Shown piece after piece: positions 12,028-32,257 of a stretch of 56,835 bases of DNA. The stretch comes from Weissella thailandensis (GTDB lineage: Bacteria; Bacillota; Bacilli; Lactobacillales; Lactobacillaceae). A program made the translations under genes and the position numbers. The stretch spans positions 1 to 56,835 of the forward strand of contig NZ_BJEC01000014.1 of the NCBI RefSeq assembly GCF_005405465.1. The letters run 5' to 3'. The stretch's first letter is position 1; the number at the start of each line of letters is the position of its first letter. The notes under the pieces are model-generated. The model was given only the letters and a program-made list of their open reading frames with translations, did no database searches and was not told where the DNA came from.

Positions 12028-12067
12028 ATTTATAATATATAAACCATGAGCATTATATATTATAAAT
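12028..12067 (+). repeat. Leader hairpin with 14-bp perfect arms
   Basis: Arms ATTTATAATATATA and TATATATTATAAAT are perfectly complementary around a 12-nt loop. An ATG in the loop (12046) opens a seven-codon frame, MSIIYYK, which could be a leader peptide. A GGAGGG lies at 12018-12023, rather far from that ATG. Confidence 0.55.
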
Positions 12068-12183
12068 GAGAGTATTTTAATTTCACCTGTATATCCCTTT
12101 ATTATACATATTTAATATTGATTTAAAGTTGAATCAATGATAAATTTTAAGTATATAACATGGAGGTTCTGGGTGATTTTTTT

Positions 12184-12765: not shown

Positions 12766-12776
12766 AGGTGATTATT

Positions 12777-13955
12777 TTGTTTCAAAGAATTAGTTTAATA
12801 GTTATTTTTTTAATTAGTATTGGGGTTGGTTTAGCTATCCACAAAACACGGAAAAGAAATCCAACCATTTTAAATCATATTAGTAAGATTATCTTTGATG
12901 CTATTGCTATCATATCAGGAGCCTTGGTAGGTGGCCTTTTTTTACGAGTTAAAGAACAACAAATGGGCATGATAATGATTTTAATCACAGTAATTATATT
13001 CTTTCAAATTGTTATTGAAATTGTTAATGAACCAATTAAGACAAATAAAATAATATTGAGCTTGTTGCTTATACTACCCGTGGTAGGTATTTATTATGGG
13101 AATAGTCAGTTCAAAGTAATCTATAATTCTGAACAAACGATTTTAAAAAAATCCGAAGATAGCGGAGATTATATTAATACAACATATAAAAGAAAATTTA
13201 ACTTACGAAGTCAACGGGGGAATAAACTTAGTAATAAGCAGCAAAAAATATTGAAATATGATGACTTTTTGCTAATAAATGGGAAAAGTACTCCTAATAT
13301 ATATGTTTATGGTGAAGATGCAAGTACTCATAAAAAGCTATTTCTAACAAAAACTAACAACGTTGGTAATTTTACTGTTAAATTAGATAAAAAAAAGATA
13401 GCTAACAATTATAAAATTAATGTGTTTGTTAATAATATTGCCTTGCAAAATAAGCAAAAAGTTGTCAAAGGAGCGTCAGCAATACCCGACCGTGTGTTAA
13501 GTTTAAATAATCTATCGGAACAAGGGATACTTACTGAAGGGGTACATCAAGTTGGTGATGATCTGGATGCAGGTAATTATGTATTGCTGAGTGAAGATAC
13601 TGGAAGTATCCAATGGCTAAATGGTGACAATATAGAGAGAGCTTTTGACAAAAATCTATATATCAAGTTTCATCAAAATGATATGATCAAGGTTAATAAT
13701 GCTAAATTATTAAAAATAACATCAGGAATGAATTTTGCTAATGGTGATGCAACAAATGGTATGTTGAAGGTAGGAACCGACATACTACCTGGAAAATATC
13801 AATTAAAATCAACAGATAATTATAGTATTGCAAAGCTTTATTCCAAACCATTCGAGAATAATAGTCAAGAGGGTGAGCTTGTCATTACTGAACATGTAAC
13901 TTTGCAACCAGGCGACTATATTTATGTAATGAACACGAAATTAATTAAAAAGTAA
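12777..13955 (+). CDS. Membrane protein with repeated extracellular beta domains, pgs operon accessory
   Basis: About 392 residues. The first 125 hold four to five membrane helices. The remainder is predicted extracellular: an Ig-like stretch near FTVKLDKKK, then two related repeats with VGDDLDAGNYVLL and VGTDILPGKYQLK, each followed by an acidic strand. Such V-G-x-D-x-x-x-G-x-Y repeats occur in surface proteins of Gram-positives. The TTG at 12777 has AAGGTGA at a proper distance; an in-frame TTG at 12753 would overlap the previous gene by 13 bp. It ends 11 bp before pgsB. An envelope accessory of polymer synthesis is inferred. Confidence 0.6.
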   Translation: MFQRISLIVIFLISIGVGLAIHKTRKRNPTILNHISKIIFDAIAIISGALVGGLFLRVKEQQMGMIMILITVIIFFQIVIEIVNEPIKTNKIILSLLLILPVVGIYYGNSQFKVIYNSEQTILKKSEDSGDYINTTYKRKFNLRSQRGNKLSNKQQKILKYDDFLLINGKSTPNIYVYGEDASTHKKLFLTKTNNVGNFTVKLDKKKIANNYKINVFVNNIALQNKQKVVKGASAIPDRVLSLNNLSEQGILTEGVHQVGDDLDAGNYVLLSEDTGSIQWLNGDNIERAFDKNLYIKFHQNDMIKVNNAKLLKITSGMNFANGDATNGMLKVGTDILPGKYQLKSTDNYSIAKLYSKPFENNSQEGELVITEHVTLQPGDYIYVMNTKLIKK

Positions 13956-13966
13956 AAGAGGTAGCG

Positions 13967-15148
13967 ATGAACTTCGAATTAGCATTACTCATTATTATTG
14001 CGGTTGTATTAGTCGCTGTGGGTATAATAGAAAAAAAGCATAATCACATACGAGCTACTAACATTCCTATTCGAGTGAATGTTAATGGCATTCGTGGTAA
14101 GTCAACAGCAACTCGGTTAATTACTGCAATTATTGATGAGGCTGGTTATAAAACTATGGGGAAAACAACGGGAACAGCTGCACGTAAGATTTTTCCTTAT
14201 AAGCGTGAAGAAATACCAATTCAACGTAAACCACAAGGAGCCAATATAAAAGAACAGCTAGATACAATTAAAGAGGCTGAACGTTATAAAGTGGATGCTC
14301 TAGTTTGTGAGTGTATGGCTGTAAAGCCTGAATACCAAGAAATTTATCAACATCAGATGTTCAAAAGCAATATCTACGTGATTGTCAATGTATTGGAAGA
14401 TCATTTGGATCAGATGGGACCAACATTGACAGAAATTGGTTATACTTTTGCTAAATCTATTCCTTATAACGGATATGTTGTCACAGTGCCTAGTCCTTTT
14501 ACTACATACTTTCAGAAGGTCGCTGATGAAAGAAATACCAAGTTAGTTTTAGCAGATAATTCAAGAATTCCTTCAGGCTATTTGGATAAGTTTGATTATG
14601 TGCTGTTTAAAGATAACGTTAGTTTAGCAATGGCAGTCGCGGATATTTTAAATATTGATGAAGAGGTAGCTTTCCGAGGGATGTTAAACGCTGAACCTGA
14701 TCCAGGCGCATTAAAAGTTAAACGTATTCAAAATGACAAAGTTGACTTTACTTTTGTCAATGCGTTTGCAGCCAATGAGCCAGCGTCTACGTTAAATATT
14801 TGGGAGTATATTAAGAATAATCCAGATATTCCAAGCGATAATCCGATTGTTTTGTTTAATGGTCGTCCAGATCGTGGCGATCGTACAGAACAGTTCGCTA
14901 AAGACTTTTTCCCATATGTAGAAAATGCAACAATAATTGGTATGGGACAAGCAATTAGACGTATTGGTTATTATTACGACAAGGGATTTTATCCTGACGC
15001 AAAAGAGTACATTGATGAAGAAGATGAAAAGCCAGTAAGTATAATGAAAGAACTGTTACCATTGTTAAACGGGCGTGTATTATTAACTGTTGGTAATATC
15101 CATGGTGATGCTGAAGAATTATTAGACATCATTAAAGACATAATGTAA
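13967..15148 (+). CDS. pgsB: Poly-gamma-glutamate synthase ligase subunit PgsB/CapB
   Basis: The 393-residue protein matches the length of Bacillus PgsB. An N-terminal membrane helix (residues 3-20) is followed by a Mur-ligase-like nucleotide-binding loop VNGIRGKSTATRL near residues 40-52. Conserved blocks such as CECMAVKPEYQ, EDHLDQMGPT and NGRPDRGDR follow. PgsB is an ATP-dependent amide ligase that extends the gamma-linked glutamate chain at the membrane with PgsC and PgsA. It is the third gene of a six-gene operon on the rpmA island. AAGAGGT lies just upstream of the ATG. Confidence 0.93.
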   Translation: MNFELALLIIIAVVLVAVGIIEKKHNHIRATNIPIRVNVNGIRGKSTATRLITAIIDEAGYKTMGKTTGTAARKIFPYKREEIPIQRKPQGANIKEQLDTIKEAERYKVDALVCECMAVKPEYQEIYQHQMFKSNIYVIVNVLEDHLDQMGPTLTEIGYTFAKSIPYNGYVVTVPSPFTTYFQKVADERNTKLVLADNSRIPSGYLDKFDYVLFKDNVSLAMAVADILNIDEEVAFRGMLNAEPDPGALKVKRIQNDKVDFTFVNAFAANEPASTLNIWEYIKNNPDIPSDNPIVLFNGRPDRGDRTEQFAKDFFPYVENATIIGMGQAIRRIGYYYDKGFYPDAKEYIDEEDEKPVSIMKELLPLLNGRVLLTVGNIHGDAEELLDIIKDIM

Positions 15149-15167
15149 TAGGGAGTATATAAGTTAA

Positions 15168-15620
15168 ATGGTTATAACGGATTTTTATTTAGCATTAATT
15201 TTTGGGCTATTCATAGGTTTATTTTTTTCTGAGTTTACGGGTATTGCTACTGGTGGAATAATAACACCTTGTTATTTATCCTTAGTTATTGATACACCAG
15301 AGGTTTTAGTTTCAATCTACTTAGTCGCAATTTTGTCATTCTTAATAGTACAATATATTTTACCTAAGTTTGTTATCTTGTTTGGTAGACGACGCTTTGT
15401 GGCTTTTCTTTTGACTGCTGTAATTTTAAAGCTCTTGCTTGAACTAGTTTATCCATTAATGCCATTCTCGACATTCCTTTTTAGAGGAATTGGCATTATT
15501 GTTCCTGCGTTAATTGCGAATACATTCTCTAAGCAAGGGATTAGGCTAACGACATTTTCAACATTATTTATTGCTTTTCTGGTTTTTGTGGTTATTTCAA
15601 TTATCCATTTATTTATATAA
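15168..15620 (+). CDS. pgsC: Poly-gamma-glutamate synthase membrane subunit PgsC/CapC
   Basis: The 150-residue, very hydrophobic protein has four to five membrane helices and the PgsC features FTGIATGGIITPCY and a late LIANTFSKQGIR segment. Its length equals that of Bacillus PgsC (149 aa). PgsC forms the membrane complex with PgsB. It lies 20 bp after pgsB, with GGGAG at an extended spacing upstream. Confidence 0.92.
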   Translation: MVITDFYLALIFGLFIGLFFSEFTGIATGGIITPCYLSLVIDTPEVLVSIYLVAILSFLIVQYILPKFVILFGRRRFVAFLLTAVILKLLLELVYPLMPFSTFLFRGIGIIVPALIANTFSKQGIRLTTFSTLFIAFLVFVVISIIHLFI

Positions 15621-15632
15621 GAGGGGTAGTTA

Positions 15633-16931
15633 TTGATTATGAAAAAAGATATGCATGAAGATGAACAAATGTCTAGACTAAAAAGAAATAAACATTTGAA
15701 AAATAATAAGCATTTCGGGTTAAAAAATACACATGTACATAAGGGAAAAAATCTTACGTTACTACCACAATCCGATAATGAATCTTTGACTCTAAAACAA
15801 AAAATAAACCGGTCTATACGGTATCAAGTTAAGGCTAAGCCAGCCGCACTATTATTAGGAGCATTGATTTTATTTGGGTTAGTATGGGCGCTAGATTATG
15901 TACATAATGATTTATTAGTTTCAAATAAAAATGTATCATTGACTAGTAAAAAATCTGATCGTTTTCAAATGACACTCGTTGGTGATATGATGATGGCCCG
16001 AGGAAACCAACGTCAAGCAGATCATTTAGGGTATAATCATTTTTTCCAAAAAAGTAAATATTTATGGCAAGACTCTGACTTGGTTATGGGAAACTTAGAA
16101 TCTGCCATTATTACTGATAGGAAAAAAGTTAAGGAAAATCCAGATACCAATATCCATCTTTTGATGGATCCTAAAGGTGCATCAGCTATGAAAGATGCTG
16201 GATTTACAACTTTAGGTACAGCTAATAATCACGTTGGTGATTATGGTAAATCAGGTATACGCCAAGAGCTAAATTATTTAAAGAAAAATAATATAGATTT
16301 TGTAGGGATTGGTAGTGATACTTCAGAGGCATTAAAATACCAAACTTATAATGTAAATGACGTAAAAATTAGTGTAGTAGCTGTTACTGACGTTATACCT
16401 GATCATACAAGTGTTCAACAAAATGCAGCTGGAGCATTGACAACAAAGAATAATGATTATTTAAATCTTATTAAGGAAGCTTCTGCTCATTCAGATTATA
16501 CAATTGTTTATTCTCATGGTGGCTTTGAAAATGGTTTGACGGTTACTGAGCGTCAAAAAGAATTAGACAAAAAGATGGTTGATTCAGGAGCAGATTTGGT
16601 TGTGGGTGCGCATGCCCACGTGTTACAGCCAATAAGTAAATATAAAAATGCTCTGATTTTAAATGGCATGGGTAATTTCATTTTTGAACAAGAACAGTCT
16701 CGTACAAAGGATGCTGTGGTTGCCAACTTACGTATGACGCAAAAAGGAAAAATGAAATTAGAACTTATTCCTATGAGAATTAAAGATGGTGTGCCAACAG
16801 TAACTAAGAACTTATTTTATCAACAACGAATTTTTCATCAATTAACAAAGAATTTACCGCAACGTGATTACCATAAAGTTGACCAGTCAGTAATAATGGA
16901 CAACTTTGGTTATAATTATCGCTTTGAGTAG
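15633..16931 (+). CDS. pgsA: Poly-gamma-glutamate export/synthesis protein PgsA/CapA
   Basis: The 432-residue protein has a basic cytoplasmic N terminus of about 65 residues, one membrane helix near residues 70-90 and an extracellular PGA_cap metallophosphatase-like domain. Conserved blocks include LVGDMMMARG, MGNLESAI, GTANNHVGDYG, YSHGG and VGAHAHVLQP. CapA/PgsA is needed for polymer transport and completes the synthase. The basic N-terminal extension is longer than in Bacillus PgsA (about 380 aa). The TTG at 15633 has GAGGGG 6 bp upstream; an ATG at 15639 is the alternative. It lies 12 bp after pgsC. Confidence 0.92.
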   Translation: MIMKKDMHEDEQMSRLKRNKHLKNNKHFGLKNTHVHKGKNLTLLPQSDNESLTLKQKINRSIRYQVKAKPAALLLGALILFGLVWALDYVHNDLLVSNKNVSLTSKKSDRFQMTLVGDMMMARGNQRQADHLGYNHFFQKSKYLWQDSDLVMGNLESAIITDRKKVKENPDTNIHLLMDPKGASAMKDAGFTTLGTANNHVGDYGKSGIRQELNYLKKNNIDFVGIGSDTSEALKYQTYNVNDVKISVVAVTDVIPDHTSVQQNAAGALTTKNNDYLNLIKEASAHSDYTIVYSHGGFENGLTVTERQKELDKKMVDSGADLVVGAHAHVLQPISKYKNALILNGMGNFIFEQEQSRTKDAVVANLRMTQKGKMKLELIPMRIKDGVPTVTKNLFYQQRIFHQLTKNLPQRDYHKVDQSVIMDNFGYNYRFE

Positions 16932-16945
16932 GCGAGGTCATTAAT

Positions 16946-18586
16946 ATGAAATATCTTAAAACAATTGGTAGTATATTACTTATTATTCTGGGTGTTGTCT
17001 TTTTATTCGTTATATTGGGTTATTCTACGAGCAATACAGGAAACACTAAAAGTTTAGTAGCAAAAATAACTAAAACTGTTCCTTGGCATAATGAAAAAGA
17101 AAAAATATCTCATCATAAAGTGGCTGTATCAACATCTAATCCATATGCTACAAGAGTAGGAATGGATATATTGAACGATGGTGGTAACGCTGTTGACGCT
17201 GCAGTAGGGGTTTCATATGCGCTATCAATTACAGAGCCATACGCATCCGGTTTAGGTGGTGGTGGTGGAATGCTAATATATAATCCTAAAAATAATCAAT
17301 ATCATGGTATTGATTATCGTGATAGTGCTCCAGTTTCTCACCAAACAAATACTTCAGAGATTGGTGTTCCCACTTTTGTTAAAGGTATGGATTATGCTAG
17401 TCGACAGTACGGGACAAAAACAATGTCTGAAAATATACAACCGGCCTTGAATATTGCACAAGAGGGTTTTAAAGTATCACCCTTTTTTGCAAAATATATT
17501 AATGTATATCGTTATTTTTTAAAAAATAACGATGATTATTTAGACAAAAATGGTAATCTGATTACCCAAGGGGAAAAAATGAACCCTAAAAAGATGGCTA
17601 AAACGTTAAAATATATTCAAAGACGTGGTGTTGAAGGCTATTATTCAGGTCCTGTTGCCAAGGAAATTATGAAACAGGGTGACTTAACAAAAAAAGATTT
17701 AAATTCATCTAGAGTAGAAGTGACTGAACCAGTTGTGTCTAATGTTGGGGATAGTCAGTTTGCTACATTAGCTGCGCCATTTTCAGGTGTTACTCTGTTA
17801 CAAATGGTTAAAATGGCTGATAAAGTTTCATTAGCTAATCCAGGTACAAATCCTGATACTTATTTAAAGCAATACGATCATATAAAGCAACTAGCATATC
17901 AAGACCGTATGCAGCACCTGGGTGATCCAACACGTAAACACGTGAATTCCCAAAAAATGGTTAGTTCTGAATATATCAATCAATTACTAACTAGTTATGG
18001 TCAGCAGCCTGATTTGAGTGCACAAGAAGACGATAGTCAAAATACTACTCATTTTTCAATAATTGATTCAGAGGGTATGGCTGTTTCGAGCACAAATACC
18101 TTAGGTAATTTTTATGGATCACAAAAAGAAGCAGGTGGCTTTTACTTGAATGCTGCGAACCGATTATTCACGGCTAGTAAGACGAGTATTAATAGCTATG
18201 AGCCTGGGAAAAAGCCACGTAATTTTACGTCACCAATGATTATTAGAAAAGAAAATAAGGAAACTATTGCACTGGGAACACCAGGTGGTAACATGATTCC
18301 CGAATTTCTTTTTCAAATTATTTATGATCATAATGTTAGAGGGACAGACTATCAAAAAGCAATAACCAAGAACCGAATGTATACTACTAAAAACAATCAA
18401 TTAGTTTTAGAAGACGGTGCAAAAAGACCAGATTATGTAGCAATATCGAAGCTTAAGGATATTCCTTATGTAAAAAAGAAAACTAGTGAATTTTTTGGAT
18501 CTGTGCAGATAGCTTACAGAAATAATGAGACTGGTAAGACAAATGTTTATAATGATAATCGTCGGGCTCCAAATTTGAATAATTAG
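16946..18586 (+). CDS. Membrane-anchored gamma-glutamyltransferase (GGT/CapD-like)
   Basis: The 546-residue protein has an N-terminal membrane anchor (residues 5-27), then the Ntn-hydrolase GGT fold with NDGGNAVDAAVG, the SGLGGGGG loop, a TTHFSIID processing site whose second Thr should become the nucleophile, and GTPGGN near the C terminus. GGT family members transfer or hydrolyse gamma-glutamyl groups. In Bacillus anthracis the homologue CapD attaches poly-gamma-glutamate to peptidoglycan, and in B. subtilis GGT degrades the polymer. Being the last gene of the pgs operon, 14 bp after pgsA, it is likely to anchor, trim or release the polymer; these roles cannot be separated from sequence alone. 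Confidence 0.9.
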   Translation: MKYLKTIGSILLIILGVVFLFVILGYSTSNTGNTKSLVAKITKTVPWHNEKEKISHHKVAVSTSNPYATRVGMDILNDGGNAVDAAVGVSYALSITEPYASGLGGGGGMLIYNPKNNQYHGIDYRDSAPVSHQTNTSEIGVPTFVKGMDYASRQYGTKTMSENIQPALNIAQEGFKVSPFFAKYINVYRYFLKNNDDYLDKNGNLITQGEKMNPKKMAKTLKYIQRRGVEGYYSGPVAKEIMKQGDLTKKDLNSSRVEVTEPVVSNVGDSQFATLAAPFSGVTLLQMVKMADKVSLANPGTNPDTYLKQYDHIKQLAYQDRMQHLGDPTRKHVNSQKMVSSEYINQLLTSYGQQPDLSAQEDDSQNTTHFSIIDSEGMAVSSTNTLGNFYGSQKEAGGFYLNAANRLFTASKTSINSYEPGKKPRNFTSPMIIRKENKETIALGTPGGNMIPEFLFQIIYDHNVRGTDYQKAITKNRMYTTKNNQLVLEDGAKRPDYVAISKLKDIPYVKKKTSEFFGSVQIAYRNNETGKTNVYNDNRRAPNLNN

Positions 18587-19207: not shown

Positions 19208-19534
19208 ATGGATGTTACACGTATAGTGCCACAAATAGAATTAGATATTGTATATTTGGCAGTGAGCTTGCTAGATATGCAAAATGTGCAACGAATAGAT
19301 TTTTCAGGACTGGATAATGCCCGCTTGGATATTGATGAGATGGAACCGACTATGGTGCCATCTTTTTTATTATCCAAGCAGACAGTCAATTGTTTTATGT
19401 TAGCTGGGACGATCAACCAAAAGGAAGAGTTGTTGGTAGTCGTTTATTGTGATTTGGCTGGCAATTATATCGGTAAAGCAGCTTTATATCATGGCGATGT
19501 TGCCTTTGAAAAGAAAGTGGGTGAAAGCACATGA
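19208..19534 (+). CDS. Hypothetical protein, 108 aa, island middle cassette
   Basis: A small acidic soluble protein with AGGAGG at ideal distance. It appears alpha/beta, with hydrophobic strands near residues 78-95 (LLVVVYCDLAGNYIG). No signal peptide or known motif. It overlaps the next, very short frame by an ATGA, so the two are translationally coupled. A terminator hairpin sits just before its ribosome binding site. Function unknown; it may be a partner or immunity protein for the 29-residue peptide. Confidence 0.55.
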   Translation: MDVTRIVPQIELDIVYLAVSLLDMQNVQRIDFSGLDNARLDIDEMEPTMVPSFLLSKQTVNCFMLAGTINQKEELLVVVYCDLAGNYIGKAALYHGDVAFEKKVGEST

Positions 19535-19724: not shown

Positions 19725-20876
19725 ATGAAATTGCCCAAGGGAATTGATTTAATGCCAAGTGGCAAATATAAGGCGACGGCTAGCATTGGGTCAGGTAGTA
19801 CACGTAAACGTAAATCAAAAAGTTTTACGACGGTGAGTGATGCCAAAGCATGGTTACTGGAAATGAATGCCGATATGCATTCGGGGACAACTTATGTTGG
19901 CGATGATGTCAAAATTACAGATACTTATAATGAATGGGTGGCTACTTTTGTGACTAGTAAGGTCAGTCCAGCAACTGAAAAAGGCTATTATTTTACAGGA
20001 AAGATCCTCGCAAAATATTGTGAAGGTTGGTTAGTGAAAATACTAGATCGTCGACATTGCCAAAAGTTGTTCAATCAATTAATTGCTGATAACTATACCA
20101 AAAATACAATTAAGAAAATCAAGGTACATGTCGGTAAGTATTGTCGCAGTTTAGTCACAGAGGGGGTTATCAAGCGAAACCCCATGCAAGAAATAGACAT
20201 TCGAGGGGCTCGCTTAGGTAAGGATGCTAATCAAAAATTTATTAGTATCGGTCAGTACAAGCAGTTGTTGCAAACACTAAAGCAACGACCAATATCACAG
20301 ATGACACCCTACACGATGGTTATACTGGTTATTTTGTGTACCGGTATGCGAGTAAGTGAGGCCATTGACTTACGGCAGGATGATCTTGACGAAATCAAAC
20401 TGACGTTACGCGTTGACTCAAGTTATTCACGAACGGTGCACGATAGTAAAGCACCTAAGACCAAAAATTCATATCGGACCATACCGATACCTAGATTTTT
20501 ATTGCAACGTTTAAGAGAATGGCGGTTTGAACAGAATCGCTTGTTAATGCTGAATGGTCATCGAAATCACGAGCAGCATTTATTCATCACCAAATTTGGT
20601 AATGTACCCGATGCAAGTAGTGTAAATTACTATGTACAAAAACTAGAACATACAATCTGTCAGATACCAGTGGGGCAAACAACTTCAACACATTCACTTC
20701 GACATACTTATGCGAGCTACTTATTATCACGTGAAGGTGGTAATCAGTCGTTACAGTATGTCGCCAATGTATTAGGTGATACCCAAGCAATGGTACAAGA
20801 AGTGTATGCACACTTGATGCCAGAAGAAAAAGCATCACAAGCCAATGTGGTTCGTGATGCTTTGGAAGTTATTTAA
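19725..20876 (+). CDS. Tyrosine recombinase / integrase 1
   Basis: The 383-residue protein has an N-terminal arm-binding domain (GKYKATASIGSGSTRKRKSKSF), a SAM-like core-binding domain (about 65-160) and a catalytic domain. Catalytic features are Arg in TGMRVSEA, Lys in KAPKTKNSYR, the HSLRHT box, and the Tyr nucleophile in EVYAHL. The position usually filled by His in LGH reads Asp (LGDT). It belongs to the phage/ICE integrase type and is clearly related to the second integrase at 25940 along its length. Its 3' end nearly touches a convergent gene, leaving no room for an attachment site there. Confidence 0.9.
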   Translation: MKLPKGIDLMPSGKYKATASIGSGSTRKRKSKSFTTVSDAKAWLLEMNADMHSGTTYVGDDVKITDTYNEWVATFVTSKVSPATEKGYYFTGKILAKYCEGWLVKILDRRHCQKLFNQLIADNYTKNTIKKIKVHVGKYCRSLVTEGVIKRNPMQEIDIRGARLGKDANQKFISIGQYKQLLQTLKQRPISQMTPYTMVILVILCTGMRVSEAIDLRQDDLDEIKLTLRVDSSYSRTVHDSKAPKTKNSYRTIPIPRFLLQRLREWRFEQNRLLMLNGHRNHEQHLFITKFGNVPDASSVNYYVQKLEHTICQIPVGQTTSTHSLRHTYASYLLSREGGNQSLQYVANVLGDTQAMVQEVYAHLMPEEKASQANVVRDALEVI

Positions 20877-20882: not shown

Positions 20883-22349
20883 TTAATTGTCGTGCATATC
20901 ACCTTTTGTGTAAATTTTTTTAACCGACAGCTTATTTGGATTGCCTTCAGTTGAAGAAATAGTAGTAGAAAGCATATTGCTTTCTTTTTTTAGTGCAATC
21001 AAATCTAAAATATCCTGGGCGGTAATAACAACATCAGTATTTAAAAGACTATTCATCATACGCTCAAGGAATAAACCATCTTGGTCAGTTAGTAGCGGGT
21101 CGCAAGAGTTCGCAAGCATGCCAAAGTTTACGTTCTTGTATTCATGCAAGAACATGAACAGCTTGGATGACCATTCTTTAGTTGTTGCGTAAAGCAGCCA
21201 AGTATCAATTGGGGCACGGGTAATTGACCTATCAGCATTTGCCAAATTAAGAAGTACTGGTTGATTACGCAATAGGTCAAAAGTATAGTTAAATTTTCTA
21301 ATGCCCAAACGAATATTCTGCATTTTAGTGTTGAAATCTTGAATTATGTGATTATCAGTAAAGTTATATGGGTCTAATAGCGCAGACAAATCACCAGGGA
21401 TAAAGTCATTCAACTGATCTAAAATAGCAGAAAATTGTTCAATATCACGGATCGAGGCCGCTTTAATTTGATGATTCAGGTACATAGTGGCTGCTGCAAA
21501 TTTGAATTTACTGATTGAATTGATATTTGAATTATCGTTATTGAAAGAGGCTAGCTCTTGTAGGTCAGTTACGTCCAGGTGGTACAGGTCCAAGAAAGCT
21601 AATAATGCTTTTGTAATAAAAAATTGATTAGATTGTGTTACTGAAATTTGTGATAAATGTAACTCATTATCAGCATCCTCTCTGCTAAAGCAAACGTCCA
21701 AGGGCAAGGCCAATAAGAACATGCTGTAAATTTTAACTATTGAATTTAATAATGACAGTGGTTCTTTCAATTTGGTCTGCAAATCCGTAATTTCTTCAGA
21801 GAACGGCTGATTGTTGGTGATTGCAAATTGTTTTTGAGCATGCAAGTCATTTAAATCATCCCAAGTAGTTTCCTTGAAGTTATGATAATTAAAGTCACGC
21901 CTAAATCTTTGAATGGATTCACGATTTGATGGCAAAAGTTTCCTCCAGTCAGAAAATCGCTTGTCTAATATATCTTCAACGTATTGTCCAGGTAATGCGT
22001 GGAATATAAATAATGGAATTAGTACAGCATCAATAGGTCCGTCTGTCTGTAACCCATAAAAGTCGTAAAAATTTTGACTCGTCCGTAACTGATTACGCCA
22101 ATCATGATGATAAATTGGTTTAATATATAAATTTGAGTCTTTTCCATTATTTTTTAATTGCATAGCCATAGAAAATTTTCGAAGCTTTATTGTGTCTTCA
22201 AAAAAAGATTTATCAATTTCATTTGGCATATGTTTATTTGAGTAGGTACTAATGTTGATGATGGGGGTAGATTGATCATTGGGATAGTCAGTTTTCAGAG
22301 CAATATTTAAAGTTAAAAATAATGCGTTACCTTTTGAAAAAGCATACAT
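20883..22349 (-). CDS. Unknown 488-aa island protein divergent from the replication operon
   Basis: I do not recognise this protein. It is mostly helical, soluble, lacks a signal peptide and has no nucleotide-binding or nuclease motif that I can see. The N-terminal 100 residues look beta-rich; residues 110-460 are rich in Leu, Asn, Asp and Phe helices; the C-terminal 30 residues are polar. The start at 22349 is preferred over a GTG at 22358 because AAGGAAG is then 8 bp upstream. It is transcribed away from the polymerase-helicase operon across a dyad-rich 180-bp region, the usual place for a regulator or a defence effector. Confidence 0.6.
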   Translation of the reverse strand: MYAFSKGNALFLTLNIALKTDYPNDQSTPIINISTYSNKHMPNEIDKSFFEDTIKLRKFSMAMQLKNNGKDSNLYIKPIYHHDWRNQLRTSQNFYDFYGLQTDGPIDAVLIPLFIFHALPGQYVEDILDKRFSDWRKLLPSNRESIQRFRRDFNYHNFKETTWDDLNDLHAQKQFAITNNQPFSEEITDLQTKLKEPLSLLNSIVKIYSMFLLALPLDVCFSREDADNELHLSQISVTQSNQFFITKALLAFLDLYHLDVTDLQELASFNNDNSNINSISKFKFAAATMYLNHQIKAASIRDIEQFSAILDQLNDFIPGDLSALLDPYNFTDNHIIQDFNTKMQNIRLGIRKFNYTFDLLRNQPVLLNLANADRSITRAPIDTWLLYATTKEWSSKLFMFLHEYKNVNFGMLANSCDPLLTDQDGLFLERMMNSLLNTDVVITAQDILDLIALKKESNMLSTTISSTEGNPNKLSVKKIYTKGDMHDN

Positions 22350-22531
22350 AAATATCACTTCCTTATTTTTTTTTATACATAATGAATTGTGAGCATTTTA
22401 CTAGTATTAACGCCCTCAGCAATTTTTTATAGAGTGCCATATGATTATGAATGTACCAAGGAATACGAATTGGTACTTTCTAAATCAGCGCTGATTTATG
22501 TTTTATTGTATAACAAATGAAGGGGATTTAT
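22350..22531. promoter_or_regulatory. Divergent control region with two dyads (possible operator or origin)
   Basis: Between the divergent 488-aa gene and the polymerase gene lie an interrupted dyad GTACCAA / TTGGTAC at 22453-22476 and an 18-bp perfect palindrome TAAATCAGCGCTGATTTA at 22481-22498, in an AT-rich background. Spacing fits an operator pair or a replication origin next to the replication genes. Confidence 0.6.
22481..22498. repeat. 18-bp perfect palindrome
   Basis: TAAATCAGC followed by GCTGATTTA, 33 bp before the polymerase start codon. A likely protein-binding site. Confidence 0.7.
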
Positions 22532-23524
22532 ATGGCTTTATTGAATATTGAAAAAAATTTAGTTGGTGTTGATCAAGGGTTTGATGAACTTATATTGCCG
22601 CTGCTTGATTCGACTGGTTTTTCTGTGGCTTACTTTCAAATATTGAATGACCACAATACTGGCAAGTTAGTTGTAGATGATTTGGTGGAGTTGCGAAGGT
22701 GGAGTACTGGCTTGTTAAACATACAAGGTAGGACGATTAATGAAGTTGATGGGACCGTGCATATTATTGGCAAGCATGAAGCCTACGCTAACATTCCAAT
22801 GCAACTGACAACCAGAGCTCCGAACACACAGGGTATACCAAAATGGTGTAGGAATTATCTGGTTGCACCAACTGGAAGACGCTTTGTTGCCTTGGACATT
22901 GGCTCTGCTGAGCCTCGTGCGTTAGCTGGTGTTGCTGATGATGAAAAATTACGAATGGCAATCTCTGAAGGGTTGTACGAATCAGTGGGTAACTCTTTAC
23001 TAGAGCACACGGGAATCGTAATACCACGTAAACTTGTGAAAGTTTTACTGCTAGGGTTCCTGTACGGACAATCCTCGAAGGGTGTAGCTAATACTCTGTC
23101 TGAAATGAAGTTAACTAATGAATTAACCAGGGAGGTATTTTTGGCACTGCAAAGTTTATTTCTAAAATCTAGATCTCTGTTGGAGCAAGTTAGCAAGATG
23201 CAGGTCGCCTTTTTACAAGGACGACCCTCTAAGATCGATGTTTCAGACAAACGACCTAATCAACGACGATCCTACTTGGCTTCCAGTATCATAGCGGCCC
23301 TGGTAAAACGTTGGGCAACTAGGCTTATTGAATTGAATCCAGAAATATGGATACATGAAATACCAAGGGATGCTTTGTGGTTAAGTATACCTGAATCAGA
23401 AACTGATGAAACAGTGCTCAATCAAGGCATTTTGGCATTGAAACAAGCAATTAACGATTGCAAATTTCAGTTCCCAATTGATGAACATATAATGACAATA
23501 AAAAATTTTGGAGGACAAGAATAA
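22532..23524 (+). CDS. Minimal family-A DNA polymerase (palm and fingers only)
   Basis: The 330-residue protein carries the polymerase core of family A. TTRAPNTQGIP (93-103) matches the TGR...PNLQNIP lead-in. Motif A is VALDIGSAEPRALA, with the catalytic Asp at 122. Motif B is RKLVKVLLLGFLYG, with R166, K170 and Y178 and a Leu where Pol I has Phe762. Motif C is PRDALWLSIP, with Asp279. Pol I proteins have 5' and 3' exonuclease and thumb domains; only about 110 residues precede motif A here, so no exonuclease is present. ATG 22532 follows AAGGGG. Together with the next four genes it forms a compact replication and integration operon. Activity is likely because the catalytic Asp residues are kept. 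Confidence 0.75.
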   Translation: MALLNIEKNLVGVDQGFDELILPLLDSTGFSVAYFQILNDHNTGKLVVDDLVELRRWSTGLLNIQGRTINEVDGTVHIIGKHEAYANIPMQLTTRAPNTQGIPKWCRNYLVAPTGRRFVALDIGSAEPRALAGVADDEKLRMAISEGLYESVGNSLLEHTGIVIPRKLVKVLLLGFLYGQSSKGVANTLSEMKLTNELTREVFLALQSLFLKSRSLLEQVSKMQVAFLQGRPSKIDVSDKRPNQRRSYLASSIIAALVKRWATRLIELNPEIWIHEIPRDALWLSIPESETDETVLNQGILALKQAINDCKFQFPIDEHIMTIKNFGGQE

Positions 23525-23979
23525 TGAAAATTGGTAAGAATGTTACGCCACGATTGGTTAATGATAAGGAACCTGTAGCAGTTAAATTAGTAAGTTTAGA
23601 TCCTTATACACAAATGAATTCATTTGGTGAGGTTGCCTGGCGGGCGTACATCCTTGAGTTGGTTCCTGAGGACACAAACATACGTCCGTTTAAAACACGG
23701 ATGTATTTGGCTGACAAGACTGATGCCAGCTTCGAAAATATCGGTGATCGATTTTTGGCTATGATAGAACGCTTTAATGACTTTGCCGCAGAGCAATATG
23801 GTAAGGAAGAATACGATATTACTGACTTAATTGGGTCAACATTTGTAGTGGAAGTTACTTACAGTAAAGCAGGTCACTTGCCTTATATTAATTTAATTAA
23901 AATAAATTCAATGCCTGCATTAGAAGATAACGATAATAATGGGCATGGACTAGGTTATTTGGTGACTGAACATGAATAA
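23524..23979 (+). CDS. Probable ssDNA-binding protein (DUF669-like)
   Basis: The 151-residue protein has an OB-like pattern. The C-terminal half contains IGSTFVVEVTYSKAGHLPYINLIKI, similar in style to the phage DUF669 proteins that accompany replicative helicases. An acidic tail (EDNDNNGHG) recalls the interaction tails of SSB proteins. Its ATG overlaps the polymerase stop region (TAATG), and it overlaps the helicase gene by 8 bp, so the three proteins are translationally coupled. A role in protecting ssDNA during replication of the island is inferred. Confidence 0.55.
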   Translation: MKIGKNVTPRLVNDKEPVAVKLVSLDPYTQMNSFGEVAWRAYILELVPEDTNIRPFKTRMYLADKTDASFENIGDRFLAMIERFNDFAAEQYGKEEYDITDLIGSTFVVEVTYSKAGHLPYINLIKINSMPALEDNDNNGHGLGYLVTEHE

Positions 23980-25699
23980 TATCAAAAGTAGAACTACTCT
24001 AATGGAGGATGTCGAAACATTCATTACACCCTTGTTATCCCAAGATAAAATTGTAGGGCTAACAGAATTTCGACCGTTAATACTAGCCGAATCACTTAAG
24101 GATCAACTTAAGCAAGCAAACATAACTACGCTTAATGATGCAGGTTCTAAACTGGTTAGCATATATGGCGAAAAATTAATTTCTTTTCTGAATGTTTACT
24201 TAGGTACTCTGGGCAAAAAGTTGGATTATCGTGATGGACATATTGAACAGGCAGACAATACCGCGGTTCAATTATTGAACGAGTTGTTGAAGGAGGCTTT
24301 GTTTGCACATTTAGGATTGCCACGTAACAGAAATGGCCATCAAACACCTATTGATGCTGGTAAAGCGGCCGTAGGTTTACGCTCGCTAATGGATGTCGTT
24401 ACTTTAAAAACTGAATCACCGGTGGATGCTACTTCAGTACGCGTTTACAACGATAGGCTTCACTATTATCAAGCACTGCAATCTACATTTGGTAGCTTTT
24501 GGCTGACTCTGTTAACACGGATACTAGGAATCAAGGCCACTATTCAATCTGAAATAGAAACCTTGCTTGCATTAGCTAAGCTAGGGGAGAAGTTCGATTT
24601 TTCAGAGCTGAACAAGTCTTATACAACGCTATTAACCGGTGATCTTAATTTAAGCACGTTTGAACTAGAACCATTTGATGCCAGTCATATGACTTCCTAT
24701 CAACTGAATTTAGCACCGAATTTAGATGCTCAAGTGATACCGCCTGCTTGGCAGAAGTATTTGGATGGACAATGGGAAAATGATGAAGAGACCGTTACGT
24801 TTATTCTGGAATGGTTAGCAACACATTTGCTTTTACAAAACCCAGGAAAGGTACTCTTTTTGTATTCGCCAGGTGGGTCAGGAAAGACACTACTGCTCGA
24901 TGCAATCAGGGCAATGCTTTCACCACAGTTGACGGCAAGCGTGCCCACAGATCAACTGGATAGGCAATTTGGCTTGGAATACTTACTTCAAGGTGATCGT
25001 CAAACGGTAGTCAGAGCTAATTTGGTTGATGAAAATTCGTTGTATAAAAGCATCGATTGGTCGAAGATAAAACGTCTGGCAGATATTAATGCTGTGATGA
25101 ATGTTGACCGCAAGAATACTAGCAGCTTGTTATTGCCTATGAATGTGCAATGTACATTTGCTATGAATTCATTGAATGTGCAGACCAACAATGTTGAAAC
25201 AACGTATGCAGTACAACGTAAAGTTTGCTTGCTGAGGTTTGAAAAATCATTTTCTAAGGAAGAAATGGACGAGGGTCTTGGTCAAAGAATGATTGGCGAG
25301 TTACCACAGTTGGGTGGGTTACTAATTCAAACGTTAAAAGAAATGAAGGGACGCGGCGATATGGTTCCAAAAGAGAGCCATAAGATGTTGGCTGATAAGA
25401 AAGCATGGTTTGCTAGCATGACCCAGGATAATTCACCAGTGGCATCATTTGCAACAGAGAGATTACAGCAAAAGAATGATGAGAGTGTTACGCGTATTGA
25501 GCTCTTGGATGCATTTGTTGATTATTGTGTAAAAAGAGATATACCTAAAATTGGTTTTGATAGTCCCAGACGCTTTTTTCCTGAACTTCGACGAGTTTTG
25601 AAAAATAATGGTATCGAAGTCGTTGAAAATAATTCGCATACGTCACCTAAATTCTTAAACTTGATAATTACAGGAGATACAGACGATGAAGCAATTTGA
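23972..25699 (+). CDS. D5N/SF3 replicative helicase (phage/plasmid primase P4 C-terminal type)
   Basis: The 575-residue protein has a D5N domain (about 215-275, with LNLSTFELEPFD and PPAWQKYLD) followed by an SF3 ATPase with Walker A SPGGSGKT near residue 300 and an acidic Walker-B-like NLVDEN. Conserved NVDRKNTSSLLLPMNVQCTFAMNS follows. A winged-helix-like C terminus (RFFPELRRVLKNNG) ends the protein. SF3 helicases unwind origins of plasmids and satellites. The N-terminal 200 residues show no primase Asp-x-Asp or zinc motif that I can detect, so priming may rely on another enzyme. It is coupled to the upstream and downstream genes by overlaps. Confidence 0.8.
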   Translation: MNNIKSRTTLMEDVETFITPLLSQDKIVGLTEFRPLILAESLKDQLKQANITTLNDAGSKLVSIYGEKLISFLNVYLGTLGKKLDYRDGHIEQADNTAVQLLNELLKEALFAHLGLPRNRNGHQTPIDAGKAAVGLRSLMDVVTLKTESPVDATSVRVYNDRLHYYQALQSTFGSFWLTLLTRILGIKATIQSEIETLLALAKLGEKFDFSELNKSYTTLLTGDLNLSTFELEPFDASHMTSYQLNLAPNLDAQVIPPAWQKYLDGQWENDEETVTFILEWLATHLLLQNPGKVLFLYSPGGSGKTLLLDAIRAMLSPQLTASVPTDQLDRQFGLEYLLQGDRQTVVRANLVDENSLYKSIDWSKIKRLADINAVMNVDRKNTSSLLLPMNVQCTFAMNSLNVQTNNVETTYAVQRKVCLLRFEKSFSKEEMDEGLGQRMIGELPQLGGLLIQTLKEMKGRGDMVPKESHKMLADKKAWFASMTQDNSPVASFATERLQQKNDESVTRIELLDAFVDYCVKRDIPKIGFDSPRRFFPELRRVLKNNGIEVVENNSHTSPKFLNLIITGDTDDEAI

Positions 25700-25925
25700 T
25701 GAGATGGGTGAAGCTAATGATAGCATGACACTAATTAGTGCTTCGCAAGCCGCCAAGCTGTTGGGAATATCACGGGCAACATTTAAACAATTATCTGACA
25801 TGTATGATTTCCCACGAATTAAGGTAGGTCGGGCTATTAGATTTCCAAAGCAAGGTCTGTTGGATAAGGTAGACTATGTTGCAACTAACTATCGAGAGTT
25901 CTTATCACTTGATGATTTATTATAG
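25686..25925 (+). CDS. Excisionase / helix-turn-helix DNA-binding protein
   Basis: The 79-residue protein contains a MerR-like winged HTH typical of excisionases: ISASQAAKLLGISRATF, then a wing with FPRIKVGRAIRFPKQGL. It overlaps the helicase gene by 14 bp and lies 14 bp before the integrase, the usual xis-int arrangement. It should bend attachment-site DNA and bias the integrase toward excision. Confidence 0.8.
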   Translation: MKQFDEMGEANDSMTLISASQAAKLLGISRATFKQLSDMYDFPRIKVGRAIRFPKQGLLDKVDYVATNYREFLSLDDLL

Positions 25926-25939
25926 GAAGGATAGGTGAT

Positions 25940-27061
25940 ATGCAAAAAATTAGTAGTGGCAAATACAAGGTTGTCATTTCTTCAGGTAGTGGTACTAATC
26001 GTGTCAGAAAGAGTCGGACTTTTGCAACTAAAAGGGAGGCGTTATCATGGGAAGGTAAGATGCAGCTATTACGTAGTACAACGCGCACAATAAACTATGC
26101 TAATGTGTCATTTTGTTCAGCGTTTGAAGTATTTATCTTAAAGTATAAGCGACCTGTGGTATCAGCAGCGACGTATAAGTCGTATGAGAGTACATTGCGA
26201 ATGCTATCCAGACAAGTACCGGATCTGAAGTTGGGTAATTTGAATCATGATATGATGTATAAATTATTCAATAGATTAGGAAAATCTGGACTATCAAATC
26301 GTAGTTTGCGGAAACATAAGAGCAATATCAGCGCAGCTTTGAGCATGCTTGTCCAACATGGTGTCTTATTGAAAAACTATGTCGCCTTAGTTGATTGTCG
26401 AAGCGCTGCTAAAAATATGCCGCCAAAAGAGATGAGTGTGCTATCAATTACGCAATATAAGCGGTTGGTTGGTTATCTTAATCAAACAGAGGTATCAAGA
26501 CTTGATTGTTGGCAAATGCTGATTTTAGTCATGTTGTCTACGGGGTTACGTACGCAGGAAGCACAAGCTCTAACTGCAGATTGCTTAGACCTAGATAATC
26601 AGACACTAACTGTTAAACAAGCCTGGTCTCGGGCAGGTCATTCGATAAAAGAGCCCAAAACAAGGCATTCATATCGGACCATCAAGATACCACAATCACT
26701 ACTTAATAAGTTAGTGACTTGGGATAATATCCATAATCAGACTCATGATGATAACCAGCTGCTTATTAGGAATGCCAATGGTTGTGTACCTGATTCTGCA
26801 GCACTTAATTACCACTTTCGACAGATACAACAAGACGTTTTGGGAATGGATCCTAGTGATTGTATTGCACCGCATGGATTACGAAGGACGTTTGCTTCGG
26901 TCATGCTTTCCAAAGACTTTGGTAACATGAGTGTGGAGGTGGTTAGCCAAATATTGGGAGACACTATTACAGTGGTCAATGAATTCTATCGCAAGGTAAT
27001 GCCGGAAACCAGCCATGCAGAAGTCTCTAACATGATTGAGCAATTGAATGATATAGCGTAA
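25940..27061 (+). CDS. Tyrosine recombinase / integrase 2
   Basis: The 373-residue protein parallels integrase 1 from the arm-binding domain (SSGKYKVVISSGSGTNRVRK) to the end. Catalytic features are Arg in STGLRTQEA, Lys in EPKTRHSYR, HGLRRTF (with Arg where the second His often stands) and Tyr in NEFYRKV. The His/Trp position again reads Asp (LGDT). It follows the excisionase and lies nearest the right attachment repeat, so it is the better candidate for the enzyme that inserted the island at rpmA. It ends in a terminator at 27073-27101. Confidence 0.9.
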   Translation: MQKISSGKYKVVISSGSGTNRVRKSRTFATKREALSWEGKMQLLRSTTRTINYANVSFCSAFEVFILKYKRPVVSAATYKSYESTLRMLSRQVPDLKLGNLNHDMMYKLFNRLGKSGLSNRSLRKHKSNISAALSMLVQHGVLLKNYVALVDCRSAAKNMPPKEMSVLSITQYKRLVGYLNQTEVSRLDCWQMLILVMLSTGLRTQEAQALTADCLDLDNQTLTVKQAWSRAGHSIKEPKTRHSYRTIKIPQSLLNKLVTWDNIHNQTHDDNQLLIRNANGCVPDSAALNYHFRQIQQDVLGMDPSDCIAPHGLRRTFASVMLSKDFGNMSVEVVSQILGDTITVVNEFYRKVMPETSHAEVSNMIEQLNDIA

Positions 27062-27072
27062 ATGATCTAGTA

Positions 27073-27101
27073 AAGCACGGAGTGAATAGCTTCGTGCTTT
27101 T
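27073..27101 (+). terminator. Terminator after integrase 2
   Basis: AAAGCACG / CGTGCTTT hairpin followed by T-rich sequence just after the integrase stop. Confidence 0.75.
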
Positions 27102-27240
27102 GTATTGGGGATGTCGGGGTAGTTGGGATGATGTTTCATACTAGCCTAACTCTCTGCTGTTGAAAAATGAGCCTATTTATATGTAGTAAATTGCGAAAAA
27201 TATGTTAATATAATGTAAAAATGTAAATGGAGCAATAGAT

Positions 27241-28236
27241 ATGAGCAATTTGTTGATTATTGGTAACGGCTTTGATATGAAACATGGATTACAAACCGGA
27301 TATGATTCTTTTAAGGACTATTTGGAGATTAAAAAAAAGTCTTGTTCAGATTTTGATAGTGTAAAAGAAAGTCCGGATGGTGATATCTATCTTGAGGAAG
27401 ATGATGCAGCAACTATTCTTTTTGAATTATTGAATAATACTAATGAGGATTGGGCTGAATTTGAGAAAATGCTGGGATCAATAAACTATGAATATTTAGA
27501 TAATCAGGTTCAACCCTTCTTTCAAAAGGACCGTTGGACGGGAGAACTAGATGAAAACTATTCTGCAAGTGATGAAAATGCTATCTCAGTATATGAGTGT
27601 CCATACTTGGCATTTAAATACCATTTAATTCCACTTTTTAAAGAATGGTTGGAATCTAAAGAAATTAAATCAAGTAAATTCGAAAAAAATAAGTTGGATG
27701 ATATTAAAAAAAGTACGATAGATAAATTAATATCACCAGAAACATTAATAATAAATTTTAACTACACCAATACAGTAGAAAAATTATATGGTGAGAAATT
27801 AAATGAGAACAATGTCCTACATATTCATGGCACCATTGATAATGATGACATTGTTTTAGGACACTTAAAAGAGGGAAAAGTATTTGACAACAAATATTTT
27901 TCAGCATCAGAATATCAGAAAAAAATTTATGATTTATTGATTAAAAATACTGAAAAGGGTCAAGATGTTTTAAAAAGATTCATAGCAAATCATCAATTTG
28001 AAAAGGTTGATAAGGTGTATATTATCGGACACAGTGTATCTGAAGTTGACAAGGGATACTTTACTAAATTAGCGGGTAGTACATCGGATGTAACTTTGTT
28101 TTTGGATAAATATCAATATGAACATGCAGGTAAAAATAAGAACAAATTGTTTAATAGAATAGAAAATGTGTGGAATGATAATCGAAATGGGAATAACAAG
28201 GAGATTCAGATAAAGTGTATTGATCTTGAGAAATGA
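27241..28236 (+). CDS. AbiH-family phage abortive infection protein
   Basis: The 331-residue protein begins with the AbiH signature NLLIIGNGFDMKHGLQTGYDSF. It later shows LIINFNYTNTVEKLY, the HIHG turn and the VYIIGHSVSEVDKGYF segment, all typical of the family. AbiH proteins cause abortive infection against phages in lactococci; the mechanism is not established. It has its own SD and stands alone between integrase 2 and the right attachment repeat. It thus looks like cargo giving superinfection defence. AT content is higher than in neighbouring chromosomal genes. Confidence 0.85.
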   Translation: MSNLLIIGNGFDMKHGLQTGYDSFKDYLEIKKKSCSDFDSVKESPDGDIYLEEDDAATILFELLNNTNEDWAEFEKMLGSINYEYLDNQVQPFFQKDRWTGELDENYSASDENAISVYECPYLAFKYHLIPLFKEWLESKEIKSSKFEKNKLDDIKKSTIDKLISPETLIINFNYTNTVEKLYGEKLNENNVLHIHGTIDNDDIVLGHLKEGKVFDNKYFSASEYQKKIYDLLIKNTEKGQDVLKRFIANHQFEKVDKVYIIGHSVSEVDKGYFTKLAGSTSDVTLFLDKYQYEHAGKNKNKLFNRIENVWNDNRNGNNKEIQIKCIDLEK

Positions 28237-28474: not shown

Positions 28475-28571
28475 CTCGTGAAGAATACAAAGAAATCATT
28501 GCTAAGTAATTAGCGATTGAAAGAACCTTACTAATTTCGGTTAGTAGGGTTCTTTTTTGTTGATATGATAG
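28475..28571 (+). repeat. attR: right copy of island attachment repeat
   Basis: A 40-bp core at 28475-28514 is identical to 11554-11593 except at one base. Similarity continues through a hairpin terminator to the shared TATGATAG near 28571. Upstream of 28475 the similarity to rpmA stops abruptly. This fixes the left edge of the crossover core and shows that only the gene end is duplicated. Confidence 0.85.
28520..28557 (+). terminator. Terminator within attR
   Basis: AAGAACC...TTACTAA / TTAGTAG...GGTTCTT hairpin plus T-run. It probably represents the original rpmA terminator displaced by the island. Confidence 0.8.
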
Positions 28572-30633: not shown

Positions 30634-30676
30634 GAAAAAGAACCTGACTAATTTCGGTTAGTCGGGTTCTTTTTTG
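30634..30676 (+). terminator. Terminator after the RclA-like gene
   Basis: AAAGAACCTGACTAA / TTAGTCGGGTTCTTT hairpin and T-run. Its sequence is close to the hairpins at 11603 and 28520. Confidence 0.85.
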
Positions 30677-30812
30677 TTGTTATTTTTAGTATTAAATAAC
30701 AACACACATAACTTAAGTTTCAGTTGAGCCTAGTTTAACATTTATGAAAGTTCGTCCACATAGAATAAAATTATTCAAACCTCATAAATTATTCGGAAGT
30801 GGAGTCGGAAAC

Positions 30813-32257
30813 ATGAATTTTATTAAACGAGCAGGGATTACCCTGTGGGCCCGCAAAGGTCGGACCGTTTTGCTGGTAATTACTGCTAGTGTTGTTTTGA
30901 TGTTTGTGATGGCAGGATTAATTATTCAAAATGCCGCATTAATGTCGGCAAAGACAGCTACTAATTCAATTGGTTCAACTGTTACCTTGTCACAAAATCG
31001 AGAAAAGATGATGCAAAAGATGCAGAAAAAAATGTCATCATCTTCGGCTGATGAGCAGCCAACTTTCACTCAGCCGACAACAACAATTGCAAAAGTTAAA
31101 AAGATTGCTGCACTCTCAAATGTTGCATCATACAATATATCAACCAGTGCTTCTGTTAACGCCAGTGGTTTCAATGCAGTTTCGACTTCGTCTGCATCAA
31201 GTCAAACTGGTATGGGCGGTCCCTTTGGTAACTCATCGAGTAATGGGAGCATCCAAATTAATGGTGTTAGTACAACAGCTGGTTCAGCAAATTTTTCGGA
31301 TGGTACGGCTAAGATGATAAGTGGACGGGGATCAAGGCAAGCGATGAAAATAAAAATAATGTTGTCATCGAGTCAGAATTAGCCAGTGCTAATAATTTAA
31401 AGATAGGTGATCGCATTAAGTTTGCAAATACTTCAGATGCATCAAAGAAAACATCAGTAAAGGTTGTCGGTATTTACAACGCGAAAACTACTACGAATGG
31501 TTTTTCACACCAAGATCCTTCAAATACGATTTATGCCTCATTTACTTTGTCGAATGAATTGGCTGGTACTGAAGGAAAGGTTTCAAATGTGATCTACACG
31601 ATGGCCGATTCATCAAAGACAAAAGCCTTCATTAAAGCAGCTAAACAGATTTTGAATGATTCAAACATGACGCTAACAAGTGATGCGGCGACATACAAGA
31701 CGGCAGCAAAGCAAATGAAAGACGTTGCAAACTTTGCTTCAAAGATTATTTGGGTAGTTGCGATTGCTGGTGCGTTGATCCTTGGTTTGATTATTCTTTT
31801 AATGACGCGTGAACGTCGACATGAAATTGGTATTTTGGTTGCGTTGGGGGAGACTAAGGTTAAAGTAGTTGCCCAGTTGTTTACTGAATTGTTAATTGTT
31901 TTGGTTGTGGCGTTAGGGATTGCGACAGCTGCCGGAACAGCAGCTTCTGGACCAATTTCAGATCGCCTAGTTTCACAACAGCAAAGTTCACAACAGTTTG
32001 TGATGAAACAAGGTGCCCCCGGTGGGAATATGAATAAATCGGATCACCAAGGTAATAGCGCACCCGCTACTGGTAAAATAACTGATGGTGCAATGGACCA
32101 ATCAACGACAAAACCAACGACTATTAATACTGTCTTAACGCCAATGGCAGTCGCTGAGTTAGGTGGCATCGCAATCTTGATTGCTTTGTTATCAGTTAGT
32201 GGCGCAGGCATAACCATTTTACGATTGAAACCGAAGAAAATATTACAAGCTGATTAA
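30813..32257 (+). pseudogene. ABC exporter permease (FtsX/MacB type), frameshifted
   Basis: The first frame (30813-31382) encodes an N-terminal membrane helix after MNFIKRAGITLWARKGR and a Ser/Thr-rich extracellular domain, then runs into a stop. The second frame, open from 31331, continues in register with ISGRG|IKASDENKNNVVIESELASANNLKIGDRIKF and reaches three C-terminal membrane helices, including the FtsX core MTRERRHEIGILVALGETK. Missing one base in the GGGG run at 31327-31330 explains the break; restoring it gives one protein of about 481 residues. It forms an exporter with the ATPase at 32280. It could be a real mutation, a phase-variable tract or a read error. Confidence 0.85.

Follow-up and report, generated by a model that had tools for sequence, protein, structure and literature searches.

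The window analyzed here, a 56,835-nucleotide stretch of Weissella thailandensis DNA, carries on its forward strand five co-directional genes at positions 22,532 to 27,061 that overlap or nearly do so, as a prior sequence-only reading had proposed. They encode a 330-aa exonuclease-free, CCPol-like family-A DNA polymerase core (22,532–23,524), recognized by Pfam, predicted structure, alignment and tree; a 151-aa middle protein (23,524–23,979), a candidate SSB/MP by its position between polymerase and helicase; a 575-aa SF3-type, Cch2-like helicase (23,972–25,699); a 79-aa excisionase-like HTH protein (xis, 25,686–25,925); and a 373-aa tyrosine integrase, Int-B (25,940–27,061), whose earlier labeling as an integrase is confirmed by Pfam Phage_integrase (E 6.4e-13). 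For the polymerase, 22,532 is the better start, with AAGGGGA directly 5' of it, and the excisionase label is a fair one, the Pfam HTH_17 match scoring 27.2 bits against a cut-off of 27 and the TIGR01764 match falling below its own. The cluster is not a chance arrangement, since the same five genes recur in two sister Weissella genomes, with protein identities of 75–77% for the polymerase, 74–93% for the middle ORF, 83–91% for the helicase, 97% for xis and 96% for the integrase. Pfam and family profile scans reported no DnaG or AEP primase domain in the module proteins.

These genes are the replication-integration core of a 16.9-kb integrative element inserted at the 3' end of rpmA. Its left end, attL, is a 40-bp core within the rpmA (L27 by Pfam) 3' end at 11,554–11,593 on the forward strand, and the same sequence recurs with 1 mismatch 16,921 bp downstream as attR (28,475–28,514, forward strand). 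Even with 12 mismatches allowed, the core occurs nowhere else in the window than at these two ends, and it sits inside a 97-bp repeat of 89.7% identity; the same pair lies 17,456 bp apart in one sister genome (G203) and 18,563 bp apart in the other (G137). Empty sites are found in two genus members without the element's second integrase, Int-A (G252 and G382), where rplU-rpmA stands directly before a menF-like gene (labeled by eye), and the flanks of the G137 element, when joined, equal these sites at 98.7% over 238 and 236 columns; in G267, a third genome without Int-A, the contig ends, so that it was left out of the comparison. With ends and empty sites located, the proposal of a replication-integration module with an exonuclease-free family-A polymerase on an integrative element stands. 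Int-A itself, a tyrosine integrase at 19,725–20,876 on the forward strand (Pfam Phage_integrase, E 6.8e-14), is found in 3 of 28 genus genomes (E<=1e-80), is 98–99% identical in the sister elements and, in a 14-row integrase tree, groups with Int-B (each with its orthologues) as mutually nearest (support 0.991). Across the three Weissella genomes, dN/dS (NG86) is 0.03–0.06 for Int-A, 0.11–0.23 for Int-B and 0.27, on very few changes, for xis.

Phage tail/lysin-like ORFs (by eye) occupy 103–8,662 and end shortly before rplU-rpmA, so that a prophage end seems to adjoin the element. On the other side, a third, partial copy of the rpmA terminator region (30,636–30,683; 48 bp, 83%, without the 40-bp core) follows genes for an HxlR regulator and a disulphide reductase and may be an older insertion end. 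At 30,744–32,257, an ABC permease encoded by a single 507-aa ORF in the sister locus L009 is split into ORFs of 212 and 236 aa.

Within the element, the forward-strand cargo at 12,160–18,586 consists of two ORFs without assigned function and a poly-gamma-glutamate capsule-type cluster of pgsB/pgsC/pgsA-like genes and a gamma-glutamyltranspeptidase (Pfam Mur_ligase_M, CapC, PGA_cap and G_glu_transpept). A 108-aa forward ORF (19,208–19,534), present in both sister elements at 95–97% identity, has no Pfam match at E<=0.1, and downstream of Int-B lies an AbiH-type abortive-infection protein (27,241–28,236, forward strand; Pfam AbiH E 2.7e-45, PADLOC AbiH). Restriction-type genes adjoin the module in both sister loci: L009 carries a type I methyltransferase, and L010 a SNF2-type helicase resembling ZorD together with a type III restriction enzyme. 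Among more distant relatives, L011 carries a type IIG enzyme, and DndH lies in the vicinity of the module in L012, an element with unmapped ends. The defense-gene scan, which included PADLOC, covered 10 proteins, among which P0006 and the product of L010 16,566–17,837 gave no match. A reverse transcriptase (Pfam RVT_1, E 4e-12) lies at L011 3,857–4,792, between the gpmA-like repeats described below, and DUF1643 proteins accompany the module in three scanned relatives (L011 11,854–12,384, L012 1,774–2,400 and L013 5,618–6,217); DUF1643 is an SCC-associated family.

Opposed to the operon on the reverse strand, a 491-aa protein (20,883–22,358) has no Pfam match at E<=1, and BLASTP against the ORFs of the loci gave no relative at E<=0.1. 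An ORF of 281–491 aa nevertheless stands directly upstream of the polymerase in 10/10 loci (window, L009–L015, L046 and L047), and BLASTP at E<=0.1 links these ORFs only between L009 and L010, between L013 and L014 (weakly also L051) and between L046 and L047, suggesting that they may be a partner of the module that evolves fast or can be exchanged. Across 20,990–22,651, which covers the opposed gene and the polymerase 5' end, identity to the sister elements is 45–64% in nine 200-column blocks, against 69% in the block that follows, 93–100% in the Int-A blocks and 86–100% in those of xis and Int-B: a recombination-type mosaic in which the opposed gene and polymerase 5' end are replaced relative to both sisters while the integrases are nearly identical. 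The sisters' polymerases are 94.5% alike, yet their middle proteins only 74%, whereas the window and G137 share 93% in the middle protein and 75% in the polymerase. Judged from these alignments, parts have evidently been exchanged between elements, with one switch apparently falling in the polymerase N-terminus, the region predicted to touch the SSB in most published models of such pairs (Rice 2023, PMC10061031).

The family-A assignment of the 330-aa protein is borne out by Pfam and by the predicted structure. Its DNA_pol_A match (E 2.8e-6, 27 bits) lies below the curated cut-off of 34.3, and a structure search found the Pol I palm fold, the model presenting a Pol I palm and fingers with both aspartates and the motif B Arg, Lys and Tyr in place; both metal-binding aspartates and the helix O residues are thus kept in the catalytic domain. 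Asp122, Arg166, Lys170 and Tyr178 had been assigned correctly beforehand, but the motif C aspartate is residue 280, not 279. Exonuclease sequence is absent, as had been claimed; the thumb, which had been taken to be missing, is shortened, the model aligning with Klenow residues 519–928, so that the N-terminal truncation takes in the exonuclease region. The motif A aspartate is preceded by 126 residues (121 from start 22,532), compared with 169 in SCC polymerases, and the three Weissella enzymes (325–335 aa, versus 379–381 aa in SCC) are the shortest among the 12 mobile-element polymerases compared. They alone among these 12, and thus unlike the SCC enzymes, have lost the TGR-motif Arg and carry R-D-A in place of H-D-E; because the TGR Arg and the HDE His are lost, polymerase activity is not a given.

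The linker that joins the PN motif to the aspartate of motif A is likewise short, with 25 residues in Weissella, 26 in SCC-type polymerases, 25–29 in six other short polymerases and 25 in the longer enzyme of L048; of the 26 Pol I-type rows, 24 have 32 residues here. As for the last thumb helix, the Weissella model has a helix at residues 109–114, with pLDDT of about 57–73. Read from the alignment, the short linker would be in line with the published shorter last thumb helix of CCPol, but it is not special to primases, since the remaining two Pol I-type rows also have 25 residues and 17 phage rows have 22–31.

The middle protein had been called a probable SSB, a label that by position and analogy alone makes it a candidate. 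Neither it, in Pfam and other family profile scans, nor the eight middle ORFs of its relatives, in Pfam, gave a convincing family match. Its model (pLDDT 43.5, unreliable) has the OB-like order E-E-E-H-E-E and, weak as it is, no Foldseek match at E<=0.001, and hhalign gives probabilities of 2% to the SCC MP pair, 21% to one of the L011 ORFs and 5% to the L048 ORF. Published MP sequences are themselves poorly conserved (Rice 2023, PMC10061031). The Weissella protein has a dN/dS (NG86, three genomes) of 0.17–0.25, or 0.17–0.21 for the pairs that include the window. The helicase had been described as D5N/SF3: the SF3 type holds, through a TIGR01613 primase_Cterm match at residues 222–523 (E 3.3e-21) that lies below that profile's curated cut-off, and Pfam reported no D5_N match at E<=1. 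A COG3378/primase_Cterm helicase is thus present downstream of the polymerase, with a dN/dS (NG86, three Weissella genomes) of 0.12–0.15.

How far does this arrangement extend? At E<=0.001 the window polymerase (P0001) matches 8 of 397 family genomes, its own included; two of the others are from Weissella itself, at 75 and 77% identity, and five from four further genera, at 26–27%. All eight loci keep the order polymerase, middle ORF, helicase, small HTH-like ORF and tyrosine integrase, where in L013 and L014 the small ORF was judged by eye and L011 has two ORFs between polymerase and helicase; at least two tyrosine integrases are seen in seven of the eight in the DNA read, and L011 shows one. 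A further locus, L051 in Lactiplantibacillus fabifermentans, has polymerase, middle ORF and helicase up to the end of its contig. In L011 (3,436–3,645), L013 (1,615–1,824) and L015 (3,950–4,156), the 3' end of a gpmA-like gene (phosphoglycerate-mutase-like, labeled by eye) is duplicated, the 207–210-bp copy lying on the far side of the element at 94–99.5% identity, so that these elements seem to insert inside that gene and restore its end; L014 and L051 show no second copy in the DNA read, and the comparison was made without L012. Polymerase, middle ORF and helicase are followed by serine-recombinase-like ORFs (by eye) in L046 and L047; on this ground, and with the SAUGI and DUF960 genes of L046, both are taken as SCC-type. 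The window and L046 helicases share 25% identity over 467 aa (E 1e-25), and polymerase and helicase are both related by sequence between SCC-type and Weissella modules.

Outside these genomes, a tblastn search of phages at E up to 1 yielded 81 records, every one below 60% identity and short of 80% query coverage, and plasmids gave 6 weak records. Viral contigs yielded no relative by single-sequence scans (P0001, P0003) or by the A5 profile, one locus by the A4 profile, whose overlapping ORF is 979 aa, and 276 relatives by the A6 profile, where the 30 examined from the best 80 are all at least 546 aa. The A4 profile found 3 loci in the genome contigs scan, and the class-level A1 search matched 398 of 398 genomes, a tally that says nothing on prevalence because Pol I itself matches. 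No molecule named CCPol, MP or Cch2 is among the solved-structure matches listed for P0001 (15), A1 (best 60 of 74), A3 (3) and P0002 (2), and no description of this element is among the literature matches listed by title, a search with subscription journals mostly outside its scope.

A FastTree phylogeny over 309 columns places the three Weissella polymerases, those of L011–L015 and L051 and the two SCC-type enzymes in one clade (support 0.999) apart from the phage and Pol I rows, with the Weissella enzymes paired with L011 inside it (0.905). Although branches are long, this grouping argues for probable common descent with the SCC-type, CCPol-like polymerases. The clade is not the whole PolA-SSB class, since the 605-aa polymerase of L048, a locus that also has a middle ORF, a helicase and what looks by eye like a serine-recombinase ORF, branches outside it among phage polymerases.

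The architecture itself has published counterparts. In pattern-2 SCC, CCPol is a family-A polymerase without exonuclease on which MP confers synthesis without a primer, and the helicase Cch2, of 3'-to-5' polarity, acts on repeats that follow its gene (Bebel 2020, PMC7581432); as in Weissella, an exonuclease-free polymerase, a small middle protein and a D5/COG3378-type helicase precede a recombinase. PolA-SSB primases have been described as a module class in Bacillota (Rice 2023, PMC10061031) with the same gene order, truncated polymerase N-terminus, COG3378-type helicase, downstream recombinase and conflict-related cargo, and family-A-related TV-Pols, linked to D5-like helicases and integrases on mobile elements, were named and predicted to act as primases in 2008 (Iyer 2008, PMC2579912). 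The earlier suggestion that the module would be a new replicon design, lacking any visible primase, therefore finds no support, the SCC polymerase and middle protein together being a primase. The differences lie elsewhere. SCC uses large serine recombinases (Ccr) at rlmH, whereas the Weissella element has two tyrosine integrases at rpmA and is not an SCC on both counts; the origin in SCC lies between helicase and recombinase (PMC7581432), whereas Weissella has no such gap because helicase and xis overlap. We found no repeat family of more than 2 copies, and no iteron-like origin, in 22,350–22,530, 27,050–27,250 or 11,560–12,170; inverted repeats before the polymerase (9 nt perfect; 18 nt at 83%) fall in a stretch that neither sister element has in common with the window. 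The site-specific recombinase that PolA-SSB modules have just downstream is here the tyrosine enzyme Int-B, whereas among the pairs described in Rice 2023 (PMC10061031) one has a Y recombinase and most have large serine recombinases, and the hosts in Table 1 of that work include neither Weissella nor a Lactobacillus-type genus. An additional N-terminal domain or a helicase fusion is found in many TV-Pols (PMC2579912); the Weissella polymerase has neither. What is unusual in Weissella is the shortened polymerase, the tyrosine integrases and the rpmA site; the replicon design is already known. Pipolins, too, are integrative elements with their own primer-making polymerase and a tyrosine recombinase. 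Their piPolB (mentioned in PMC10061031) is a family-B enzyme, and the family-A polymerase of the Weissella element rules out its being a pipolin.

In light of these results we propose, by analogy and with a probability of about 0.7, that the Weissella genes form a PolA-SSB-type primase module on a tyrosine-integrase island, for which no separate primase would be needed. This reading draws on the Pol I fold, the gene order kept in 8/8 loci, the clade with SCC enzymes, the related helicase, the linker, selection, the mapped ends and the lack of a DnaG or AEP primase domain in the scans; the OB fold of the middle protein and its homology to SCC MP, both unproven in the comparisons run, count against it, as do the lost TGR Arg and HDE His, the long tree branches with L048 outside the clade, the short linkers of phage and some Pol I-type rows, and the failure to see an iteron-like origin in the three stretches. 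A tyrosine integrase and the excisionase-like protein would move the element in and out by recombination at the 40-bp core, keeping rpmA whole; ends and empty sites are observed, whereas the reaction and the integrase that serves it we infer. The SF3 helicase would act as initiator, either on the excised circle or on transferred single-stranded DNA; there the exonuclease-free polymerase and the middle protein would lay down DNA primers de novo, and these could be extended by the same polymerase or by the host replicase. The helicase and priming steps are modeled on CCPol-MP-Cch2 biochemistry and on the common descent of polymerase and helicase.

Rather than replicating an excised circle, the module might synthesize the complementary strand on single-stranded DNA that enters through transformation or conjugation, as Rice 2023 (PMC10061031) proposed for SCC. 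No transfer genes were recognized by eye in the element, which may depend on transfer from outside, but an initiator-type helicase is not explained by that role alone, and we consider it a somewhat unlikely substitute for circle replication. The same work (PMC10061031) raised the possibility of defense for PolA-SSB sets, and AbiH next to the module, restriction-modification and DndH genes in its relatives and a PADLOC match of the polymerase to RTasPolA of DRT systems (E 4e-9) would all suit an anti-phage system; that match, however, spans the shared polymerase core alone (residues 97–202), xis and integrase genes accompany the set in every one of the eight loci, and the SCC operon's biochemistry is of the replication type (PMC7581432), which makes a defense role instead of replication improbable. 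PICI/SaPI elements combine integrase, excisionase and helicase in elements of similar size, so that a helper-phage-mobilized satellite would account for these genes and the length of the Weissella element. SaPI5 Rep is moreover the closest homologue of Cch2 (Bebel 2020, PMC7581432), but no capsid, terminase or packaging gene was recognized among the element proteins scanned (small ORFs in part), and we regard a satellite as quite improbable. Least probable of all is that the polymerase is a truncated remnant, now without function, of some phage or host Pol I, for although the short N-terminus, the loss of two otherwise well-kept motif residues and the sporadic occurrence (8/397 genomes) would fit decay, and the sequence-only reading had itself considered a truncated phage copy, the short architecture is common to three Weissella species and under constraint (dN/dS 0.24–0.26, NG86, three genomes), the catalytic residues are kept, the clade is one of mobile-element enzymes apart from phage and host polymerases, and none of the 30 viral-contig relatives examined (from the best 80 of 276) is short.

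Beyond the PolA-SSB-type reading, we tentatively entertain a broader possibility: that Lactobacillaceae have their own line of SCC-like tyrosine-integrase islands, set in rpmA or the gpmA-like gene and bearing defense or capsule cargo, and that the Weissella PolA-SSB enzyme would be a minimal primase working without the TGR Arg and H-D-E, the smallest catalytically complete mobile-element polymerase among those compared. The PolA-SSB-type module would extend this primase class to food-associated bacteria with another mobility chemistry, and its exactly mapped ends make the replication and excision of such elements testable outside MRSA. Its pared-down polymerase, in turn, offers a way to ask what a Pol I enzyme can dispense with on becoming a primase.
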